Assembly: GCA_016783505.1 (NCBI GenBank) | Contig: JADHWK010000020.1 | Span: 1-38,080 of the forward strand | Length of the DNA: 38,080 nt | Direction: 5' to 3' | Source: Candidatus Zhuqueibacterota bacterium | GTDB lineage: Bacteria; BS750m-G25 | Shown: in pieces, positions 4,161-38,080 of the stretch | Numbering within the stretch: the first letter of the stretch is position 1 | How the letters are laid out: the number at the start of each line of letters is the position of its first letter | Notes under the pieces: generated by a model | Databases searched by the model: none | Told to the model about the DNA's origin: nothing | What the model saw: only the letters and a program-made list of their open reading frames with translations | Made by a program: the position numbers and the translations under genes

Positions 4161-5150
4161 TTACCGATAACTCTGCAAATTCCTGATATAACAAGCGCGT
4201 TCGAATGCGTCCGGGTTAGCCACTGATTTCTGACTCATGCTGCCTTTTAGCTGGCTAACAGAGGTATATTCATGTTCCTCCATCCAGCACTGCATGTCCT
4301 TCAGGATATCACTGATCCGGGCAATCCCATTCTTTAACAGAGTCGAGCAGACCATGGTAACATCAGCGCCGACCATAAGCATCTTCAATACAGATTCCGC
4401 GTTGTGAATCCCGCCGGTAGCGGCAAGGTTGGCATTGACATGACCATAGAGGATAGCAATCCAACGCAGCGGCAATCGCATATCCTGGGGCGTACTCAGC
4501 AGGATATTAGGCACAACTTCCAGTTTTTCCAGGTCAATGTCCGGTTGGTAAAACCGATTGAATAAAACAAGGGCATCGGCTCCGATTTCGTCCAGCTTTC
4601 TGGCTATCATGGGCATCGAGCTGAAAAAAGGACTCAACTTTATGGCAATTGGGATGGTCGCGATGCTCTTAATGGACTTCAGAATTTCCAAGTAAATCCT
4701 CTCAACATCTGCGGCCGATCGCTTATAATCGGTTGGGATGTAATAGATGTTCAGCTCCAGTGCATCAGCCCCCGCCTCTTCGATCTTACGGGCATAATCT
4801 ATCCAGCCCCCGGTGGTTACCCCGTTTAGACTTCCAATCACAGGGATACCAACCGTTTCCTTCACTTTTCGGATATACTCGAGGTACTCTTCAGGACCGA
4901 GGACGTATTTATCTGTTTCCGGGAAGTAGGTCAGGGCCTCGGCAAAACTCTCTGTTCCCTGGGTGGTATGATAATAAAGTTCCCACTCCTCTTGGGCGAT
5001 TTGTTCCTCAAAGAGGGAATGCAAAACTACCGCCGCCGCCCCAGCATCCTCCATCGCCTTTATATTGTGGATTTCCTCGGAAAGTGGTGAAGCCGAGGGC
5101 ACCAACGGGTTCTTCAGCGGGAGCCCCATATATTTGGTTGATAGGTCCAT
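4161..5150 (-). CDS. Dihydroorotate dehydrogenase-like flavoprotein
   Basis: A TIM-barrel FMN protein of the PyrD/PreA superfamily (329 aa). Visible landmarks are KNPLVPSASPLS at 13-24, GSLNGVTTGGW near 106-116, ALELNIYY with N134 at 130-137, IAIKLSP with K171, and the phosphate-binding TGGIHN at 245-250 near the C-terminus. These match dihydroorotate dehydrogenase-like proteins often encoded next to nifJ, whose substrate is generally unknown. The true PyrD reaction is not assured. The ATG at 5150 has GGAGG about 8 nt upstream. It lies 324 bp downstream of nifJ on the same strand, separated by palindromes. A likely terminator follows. Family assignment is firm; the reaction is not. Confidence 0.88.
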   Translation of the reverse strand: MDLSTKYMGLPLKNPLVPSASPLSEEIHNIKAMEDAGAAAVVLHSLFEEQIAQEEWELYYHTTQGTESFAEALTYFPETDKYVLGPEEYLEYIRKVKETVGIPVIGSLNGVTTGGWIDYARKIEEAGADALELNIYYIPTDYKRSAADVERIYLEILKSIKSIATIPIAIKLSPFFSSMPMIARKLDEIGADALVLFNRFYQPDIDLEKLEVVPNILLSTPQDMRLPLRWIAILYGHVNANLAATGGIHNAESVLKMLMVGADVTMVCSTLLKNGIARISDILKDMQCWMEEHEYTSVSQLKGSMSQKSVANPDAFERACYIRNLQSYR

Positions 5151-36301: not shown

Positions 36302-37681
36302 TCAAAACGGTGTTTCACTAATCACTTCTTCCTCAAATCTCTCCATGGTTTCGAAGCGGGCATAATCGCGAATGAAGGTTAATTTTACTGTGCCCGTGGG
36401 GCCGTTACGGTGCTTGCCGATGATGACCTCGGCTATGCCCTCCTCTACGTGTTCGGCGGGGATTTTTCCCTTGTACATTTCTGACCGATAGATAAACATG
36501 ACTACATCGGCGTCCTGTTCGATGGCCCCGGAATCCCGGAGGTCGGAGAGCATAGGCCGGCGGTCACCGCCCCGGGACTCCACCGCCCGGGAAAGCTGGG
36601 AGACGGCGATTACCGGGATGTCAAGTTCTCGGGCCAAACCCTTCAATGCTCGAGAGATCTTGGCGATGGCCTGCTGCTGGGATTCGGCATCTGATGGGGG
36701 CTGCATTAGTTGCAGATAATCCACGATGATAAATCCGACACTGTGCTCAGATTTTAACCTTCTGGCTTTGGCACGAACCTCTAATATCCCCAGATTGGGG
36801 GTGTCATCCACGTAGATGGGGGCCTCGGCCAACGATCCTACGCTGAGGCTCAGCTTCTGCCATTCCTCATCCCTGAGGCGGCCGGTGCGCACAGCATGAG
36901 AGCTCACCCGGGCCTCCGAACAGAGCAGTCGCATGGCCACCTGGCGACTGGCCATCTCCATAGAAAAGATCCCCACCGGCACCTTGTGCTCAACAGCGGC
37001 CTCCCTGGCCATATTCAAGCAGAAAGCCGTTTTGCCCGTAGCCGGCCGGCCAGCGACCACGATGAGGTCGGAAGGCTGAAATCCGGCCGTGTATTGGTCT
37101 AATTCGTCAAAGCCGCTGGATACCCCGGTGATCACCCCTTTGCGCCCATGATAACTTTCGATGGTCTCAAAGGTGTCGTGAAGGATGGGATCCAGGGCCA
37201 TAAACCCCCGCCTATGGCGGGTGTCCGAGAGGCCGAAGATCATCTGTTCGGCCCGGTCCAGAAGATCAAAGGCACTCTCCTGAGCCTCGTACCCCTCGGA
37301 GGTGATCTGGGTAGAAACGGTAATCAGCTTCCGGAGGAGGGACTTCTCCAGCACAATCCTGGCATGATATTCTACGTTAGCCGCCGAGGACACCCGCTGC
37401 ACCAGCTCGGTCAGGTAATAGCTCCCCCCCAGATCGTCCAATTGCTTCCGTTTCTTCAGTTCTTCGGACATGGTGACTAAGTCTACTGCTTCGTTCCTTT
37501 CATACAGGCTCACCACCGCCCGAAAGATCTTTCGGTGTCCCTCCCGGTAGAAGGCCGTCTCATCCAAGATCTCGACAACTTTACCAATGGCCTCGCTTTC
37601 GATCAACATGGCCCCCAAGACCGCCTGCTCCACCTCTACCGCCTGGGGCGGCACCCTCTCTAAAGTTTCCTCTTTATTCAC
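36302..37681 (-). CDS. dnaB: Replicative DNA helicase DnaB
   Basis: Hexameric helicase that unwinds DNA at the fork. From the GTG at 37681 (459 aa) it has the DnaB N-terminal domain (RVPPQAVEVEQAVLGAML near 9-26), a linker, and the RecA-like C-terminal domain with Walker A GRPATGKT at about 211-218, Walker B IIVDYLQLM, and the DnaB motifs AVSQLSRAVESR and RDSGAIEQDADVVMFIYR. The length is standard with no intein. Two GTG starts are in frame: 37693 has no RBS, whereas 37681 has a G-run about 5 nt upstream, so the latter is preferred. It stands alone, with an attC-like site about 145 bp upstream. Confidence 0.95.
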   Translation of the reverse strand: MNKEETLERVPPQAVEVEQAVLGAMLIESEAIGKVVEILDETAFYREGHRKIFRAVVSLYERNEAVDLVTMSEELKKRKQLDDLGGSYYLTELVQRVSSAANVEYHARIVLEKSLLRKLITVSTQITSEGYEAQESAFDLLDRAEQMIFGLSDTRHRRGFMALDPILHDTFETIESYHGRKGVITGVSSGFDELDQYTAGFQPSDLIVVAGRPATGKTAFCLNMAREAAVEHKVPVGIFSMEMASRQVAMRLLCSEARVSSHAVRTGRLRDEEWQKLSLSVGSLAEAPIYVDDTPNLGILEVRAKARRLKSEHSVGFIIVDYLQLMQPPSDAESQQQAIAKISRALKGLARELDIPVIAVSQLSRAVESRGGDRRPMLSDLRDSGAIEQDADVVMFIYRSEMYKGKIPAEHVEEGIAEVIIGKHRNGPTGTVKLTFIRDYARFETMERFEEEVISETPF

Positions 37682-37824
37682 ACTATCCCCCACATTAGAT
37701 TAAGCTTAAAGCCTATGTTCTGTAACGAAAATCCTTTTCTACCATTGAGACTAACAAAATGACAATAATTCAACAAGGGTATTCCTGATTTTCTCTTTCT
37801 TGGAACTGTCTGATATTAGCGCTC
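37682..37824. other. Spacer upstream of dnaB
   Basis: About 140 bp with no gene. It should contain the dnaB promoter; a TTGTCA with TAGAAA 18 bp downstream on the minus strand (about 37735-37765) is a weak candidate only. Confidence 0.3.
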
Positions 37825-37881
37825 GCCTAACGAAAAGTTCAGCCGCGGCGAATAGCTATCGGCTGAAGCGGCTTGTTAGCC
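37825..37881 (-). mobile_element. Integron-like attC recombination site (57 bp)
   Basis: On the minus strand the site begins GGCTAAC (R'' position; 37881-37875), has inner arms TTCAGCC (37867-37861) and GGCTGAA (37844-37838), and ends GTTAGGC (R' position; 37831-37825), which fits the GTTRRRY consensus cut by integron integrases. R'' and R' are complementary at 6 of 7 bases. The 57-bp length, the near-palindrome with an unpaired centre, and the position 4 bp after a gene's stop codon on the same strand all match a cassette attC. No integrase gene is visible. Confidence 0.68.
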
Positions 37882-37884
37882 GCA

Positions 37885-38070
37885 TTACTTGGTCAATAAT
37901 GTAGACAAAGCTTTTTTTAACTCTGCTTCATCCTTTAACGCTTGAGAAAGTCTTTCTGAAAGCTCTGCCAAGACAACCCGAACGCTTCCGGCAATTTCAA
38001 GACATTCGTCGTCAGTTTTGTCATGAACTCCTTCGCTTAATGCACTGTGCAATAATGAAAGAGGATTGTG
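37885..38070 (-). pseudogene. C-terminal fragment of an unidentified gene (possible integron cassette gene)
   Basis: A 61-codon minus-strand frame reads HNPLSLLHSALSEGVHDKTD, then DECLEIAGSVRVVLAELSER and a Lys/Glu/Leu-rich helix ending in LTK and TAA (37885-37887). It looks genuinely coding: helical and amphipathic, with a normal C-terminus. It has no Met and an in-frame TGA lies directly before it (38071-38073). Just upstream another frame reads L-T, so a two-base insertion in an original L-T-H-N-P-L is one explanation. It is therefore a frameshifted or truncated gene whose 5' part lies outside the window. The attC-like site starts 3 bp after its stop. Family not identified. Confidence 0.55.
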
Positions 38071-38080
38071 TCAGTTAATC

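Follow-up and report, generated by a model that had tools for sequence, protein, structure and literature searches.

A single integron gene cassette beside dnaB in a Candidatus Zhuqueibacterota genome with a decayed integron integrase

The 38,080-nucleotide stretch of Candidatus Zhuqueibacterota DNA analysed here (the window, which is the whole of contig C2) carries at its right end part of what we are highly confident is a genuine integron gene cassette, a unit of ~952 bp made up of an attC site and the gene preceding it, which sits alone between the uracil-DNA glycosylase (udg) gene region and the replicative DNA helicase gene dnaB, was most likely captured in trans and is probably now frozen. 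A sequence-only reading of the window had described an attC-like site of 57 nt on the minus strand, with GGCTAAC and GTTAGGC at its ends and paired arms inside, lying 3 bp after the stop codon of a broken gene and next to dnaB. Two possibilities were suggested there: that the cassette is alone, or that it marks the edge of an attC cluster without integrase. The site, its distance from the stop codon and the identity of the neighbouring gene are all confirmed (Table 1), and the lone cassette is borne out by covariance-model searches, by the occurrence of the same gene family in cassettes elsewhere and by the lack of any other attC nearby. The cluster edge is not: no attC is present in 15.7 kb of the adjoining contig C24, and dnaB begins 131 bp from the cassette.

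The attC site has GGCTAAC (R'', ending in AAC) and GTTAGGC (R', of the form GTTRRRY) at its two ends, pairing at six of seven positions, with the arms TTCAGCCG (L'') and CGGCTGAA (L') inside and a loop between the arms. The spacers, AAGCCGC from R'' to L'' (7 nt) and CTTTTC from L' to R' (6 nt), fall within the 5-8 nt of attC sites. Both layout and spacing resemble those of the class 1 cassettes blaVIM-2, cmlA1 and aadA1 (RYYYAAC ... TTxCAGCCG ... CGGCTGAA ... GTTRRRY), from which the window site differs in having no extrahelical base and in its imperfect R''/R' pairing and competing hairpin.

The covariance search proposed in the sequence-only reading was carried out with two models and gave a clear match with each. 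Model R1 was built from ten attC sites, all from annotated class 1 cassettes in plasmid records, which were aligned and checked for pairing. It identified the site as the sole significant attC of the window, on the minus strand, with 30.3 bits (E 2.1e-5), compared with 9.2 bits for the opposite strand of the same site and 15.1 bits for the next-best place in the window. Model R2 was built from 17 attC sites, including sites from the same genome and from relatives but with the window site held out, and scored that site at 39.6 bits (E 7e-6 genome-wide). As a positive control, R2 found rows of attC sites directly beside intact intI genes in Methyloversatilis and Luteimonas; as a negative control, it gave zero matches at E 0.01 in six genomes (~30 Mb) with no intI hit. 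Two genomes with intI gave six hits in one and none in the other, a Treponema.

An extrahelical base gives attC sites their strand selectivity. The L'' and L' arms of the window site pair without a bulge and this perfect pairing leaves it without the usual extrahelical base, which also appears to be missing from the attC of a Syntrophaceae relative (L055). Deletion of the base reduces attC x attI recombination ~6-fold and strongly cuts attC x attC recombination, and it is not essential for attC x attI (PMC2727003). Folded as DNA, a 64-nt stretch containing the site is more stable than its shuffles (z -3.7 and -4.3). For the bottom strand, however, folding predicts that R'' is contested by a GCGGCT/AGCCGC hairpin, so that the canonical hairpin, with R and L stems together, accounts for only ~10% of the ensemble. 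The folding energies and the missing extrahelical base together suggest that the site is probably now a poor recombination substrate.

The right end of the window is a contig end, and the contig break falls within the cassette gene. An assembly-wide comparison identified an exact overlap of 139 bases between the right end of C2 and an end of C24, a sequence with no other occurrence in the assembly, and this overlap, rather than reads, is the basis on which the two contigs were joined and the complete cassette could be read. In the joined sequence the gene has ~292 codons: 230 codons on C24, an in-frame TGA, 61 sense codons and a terminal TAA. Intact relatives of 289-297 amino acids are colinear with it over its entire length and have a sense codon at the position of the TGA, and the tail beyond the TGA is 64-69% identical to them; the damage thus consists of one stop codon and not a truncation. 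The gene described earlier as broken (the fragment at 38070-37885) is thus interrupted by one in-frame TGA but is not truncated, the apparent truncation being the contig end. Decoding of TGA as an amino acid was also considered and rejected, as seven of the 32 window genes, dnaB included, end in TGA.

Joining the contigs also exposes the far end of the cassette. The left boundary, G|TTAGCT, lies shortly before the start codon and, with G|TTAGGC on the right, delimits a cassette of ~952 bp that contains a single gene directed towards the attC site and on the same strand. The sequence TTAGCT is one base off TTRRRY. The left end, GTTAGCT, complements R'' GGCTAAC over six bases. This is a better match than that of the linear right end GTTAGGC, which is expected given that these two ends are the ones joined in a circular cassette. 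A match to R'' within 40 nt of the gene start occurred in 0.8% of shuffles, and the same type of left boundary is seen in relatives of the gene.

Table 1. Positions of the cassette, its flanks and the integrase relic (positions without a contig or locus prefix are those of the window)
Feature	Position	Strand	Basis or remark
attC site	37825..37881 (57 nt)	-	covariance models
R'' GGCTAAC	37881-37875	-	box of attC
L'' TTCAGCCG	37867-37860	-	arm of attC
L' CGGCTGAA	37845-37838	-	arm of attC
R' GTTAGGC	37831-37825	-	box of attC; predicted crossover G|TT after 37831
Cassette, right part	37831..38080	-	joined C24-C2 sequence
Cassette left boundary G|TTAGCT	C24 28868/28869 = L004:4869/4870		20 nt before ATG of cassette gene
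First 230 codons of cassette gene	L004:4889-5578 (contig C24)		joined sequence
Cassette gene 3' end	37885..38080	-	contig overlap and colinearity with intact relatives
In-frame TGA	38073-38071	-	TAA stop at 37887-37885, 61 sense codons later
Spacer between cassette and dnaB	37694..37824 (131 bp)	.	no further attC, scanned with filters off
dnaB, replicative DNA helicase	36302..37693	-	TIGR00665, 564 bits, above cut-off
intI relic	C44:2866-3190 (L018)	same strand as genes and downstream attC	comparison with IntI1
attC on C44	C44:8845-8916		5.7 kb downstream of intI relic

The cassette gene belongs to a family that is itself found in cassettes elsewhere. One scan of GTDB genomes returned 36 relatives from many phyla, 36-65% identical, with hosts including Thioalkalivibrio, Sulfuricurvum, Pseudanabaena, Poribacteria, Zixibacteria, Verrucomicrobia, Treponema and rhizobia. 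In eight relatives [GA]TTAGC[CT] closely precedes the start codon and [AG]GCTAA overlaps the stop codon, attC hits adjoin the gene at six loci (L034, L041, L046, L047, L055 and L057), and a relative in Tectomicrobia has an IntI1-like C-terminal IntI fragment 180 bp upstream. Members of the family were also seen on Leptospira plasmids and in a Rhizobium phage. The intact relatives matched no Pfam, NCBIfam or PADLOC family. A high-confidence AlphaFold model (pLDDT 90) comprises a beta domain with four invariant cysteines (residues 62, 67, 96 and 99) and a helical C-terminal half, and gave no significant fold match in the PDB; a second structure comparison placed HEPN proteins on top (Z 7.6), no better than unrelated helical bundles.

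The two chromosomal flanks are made up of housekeeping genes: rpoZ, coaBC and udg on one side and, on the other, dnaB, which forms the right-hand flank and runs in the same direction as the cassette gene. Scanning 15.7 kb of C24 and the interval before dnaB with search filters off revealed no further attC, and with no other attC in either flank the element is a lone cassette and not a cluster edge. A CALIN, with at least two attC sites within ~4 kb and no integrase, is accordingly not seen here; the locus is instead a SALIN, that is, a single attC site lacking an integron integrase and the one-site form of a CALIN (PMC12690207), the only intI hit being a relic on another contig. The C24 flank has a further peculiarity, in that the 3' end of the udg gene (family 4) is repeated 1.6 kb downstream (L004:3044-3164 and 4695-4812, 121 bp, 86% identical). 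The repeats enclose a gene for a PIN-domain (VapC-like) toxin with a small gene in front of it, a segment that has the appearance of an insertion by which the end of udg was displaced.

Across the genome R2 reported 15 attC sites at E < 0.002 on nine contigs, so that the further search suggested in the sequence-only reading uncovered 14 more, though none in the adjoining 15.7 kb. Four are on C39, two each on C17, C53 and C73, and one each on C44, C72, C77 and C84, in addition to that on C2. The integrase gene that the same reading proposed to look for survives as a decayed relic only, on C44: no integron integrase over the TIGR02249 cut-off is present in the assembly, which is 59.9% complete and may for that reason lack an intact intI that the genome does have. 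In the relic the first ~58 residues (50% identity to IntI1 over 58 amino acids) run directly into the last ~42 (76% over 42), residues 70-277 of IntI1 being absent. The relic and the attC site downstream of it are a decayed chromosomal integron, on a contig that also bears purB and other housekeeping genes; a complete integron, with an intact intI adjoining attI and cassettes, was not found in the assembly. Tyrosine recombinases on C36, C87, C62 and C59 were rejected as intI, being below the TIGR02249 cut-off.

Two other contigs deserve mention. On C82 (10370-12320, L017) the C-terminal half of a XerA/IntI-like recombinase, for which generic XerA/IntI is the best fit, precedes a row of genes with attC-like palindromes between them. 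These have unusually long end boxes, GGCACACAAC pairing with GTTGTGTGCC and GGCAGATAAC with GTTATCTGCC, and each box pair flanks a single gene unit, one box at either end. The palindromes were not reported by R2, and C82 is possibly a second integron-like array. C39 (L082), a contig of 6085 bases, holds the cluster of cassettes with four attC sites, most of whose genes open with a signal peptide of lipoprotein type that ends in a cysteine, and nearly every one of these cassettes seems to carry a lipoprotein.

Single attC sites have been recorded before. IntegronFinder hides them by default because of false positives, yet its authors state that some can be real (PMC9024848). Like the SALINs described previously (PMC12690207, PMC9024848), the present locus has one attC behind one co-directional gene in a chromosomal setting with no integrase nearby. 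It does not differ from them in kind; here, however, both boundaries are readable, the gene carries an in-frame stop, and the same genome holds a decayed intI and 14 other attC sites. In decaying sedentary chromosomal integrons, such as the Xanthomonas CALINs that have lost intI (PMC12444791), the integrase is likewise lost or broken and cassettes remain at several chromosomal loci; the present case differs in coming from an isolated, otherwise unsampled lineage. Insertion of cassettes at attG or other secondary sites has also been described (Loot et al. 2024, as cited in PMC12901181 and PMC12444791). There too a single cassette is bounded by G|TT crossovers away from any array, the difference being that here insertion is deduced from end structure alone.

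How might the cassette have come to lie next to dnaB? We infer trans insertion at an attG-like chromosomal site, followed by loss of mobility. The lineage would once have had an active integron integrase, of which the relic on C44 remains, and a circular cassette would have presented its folded bottom strand to this enzyme acting in trans. Recombination between G and TT, involving the cassette core site and a chromosomal G|TT, would leave G|TTAGCT on the left and a rebuilt attC, ending in GTTAGGC, on the right; the empty site expected in the udg-dnaB interval would be ...ATATATG|TTAGGCGAGC... Thereafter the cassette would have been frozen in place, as is probable given that no intact integrase was found, the extrahelical base is missing and the gene has an in-frame stop.

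The cassette could instead be the last survivor of a larger array, either a decayed integron or a CALIN, that lay between udg and dnaB until deletions took the other cassettes and any integrase. We consider this rather unlikely. All seven bases of the right core, GTTAGGC, agree with GTTRRRY, which would be expected had a further cassette come after it, and the genome does hold an integron with a wrecked integrase and attC clusters on C39, C17, C53 and C73, yet neither C24 (15.7 kb) nor the 131 bp before dnaB contains a second attC, an attI or an integrase remnant, and the flanking genes are housekeeping genes. Insertion at an attG site and the leftover of a deleted array cannot be told apart.

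Two further explanations concern the data themselves. Assemblies are known to break at attC sites that resemble one another (PMC9024848) and the contig break does fall within the cassette gene, so a longer array might have been split by the assembler and C2 and C24 wrongly joined, with more cassettes between them. This is very improbable: the overlap is exact, lies at both contig ends and nowhere else, and intact relatives align colinearly with the joined gene from end to end. Least credible of all is that the site is a chance or unrelated palindrome, such as an intergenic repeat or an sRNA- or terminator-like hairpin that resembles attC. A search of Rfam with the site gave nothing above threshold, the best match being a weak one to P26 sRNA (21.4 bits against a gathering score of 36, E 0.16), and a dispersed DNA repeat is ruled out by the lack of further copies in the genome. 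Against a chance palindrome stand also the score of the held-out site and the zero background in integrase-free genomes, together with the strand polarity, the cassette boundary on the far side of the gene and the presence of relatives in cassettes.

Trans insertion of the udg/dnaB cassette at an attG-like site may be part of a wider pattern. Tentatively, and at somewhat less than an even chance, the single cassettes of this genome (at udg/dnaB, on C72, C84 and C77, and others) were scattered by its own integrase at attG-like sites and then fixed by decay of that integrase; if so, they would record attG dispersal as it happened in nature, beyond the Proteobacteria and in a deep lineage.

Orphan cassettes are already known, and the present case is a clean one that has been checked at both ends. 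With both ends visible, it shows that a cassette from an integron can lie by itself next to a core gene in a lineage whose integrase has decayed, and so offers evidence from nature on the route by which cassettes depart from integrons and turn into ordinary genes. The cargo belongs to an uncharacterised protein family that is both widespread and conserved, has four invariant cysteines and is cassette-borne in several phyla. An isolated lineage is thereby added to the list of integron hosts, and the main interest of the finding lies in this otherwise unsampled lineage with its decayed integrase and scattered cassettes.
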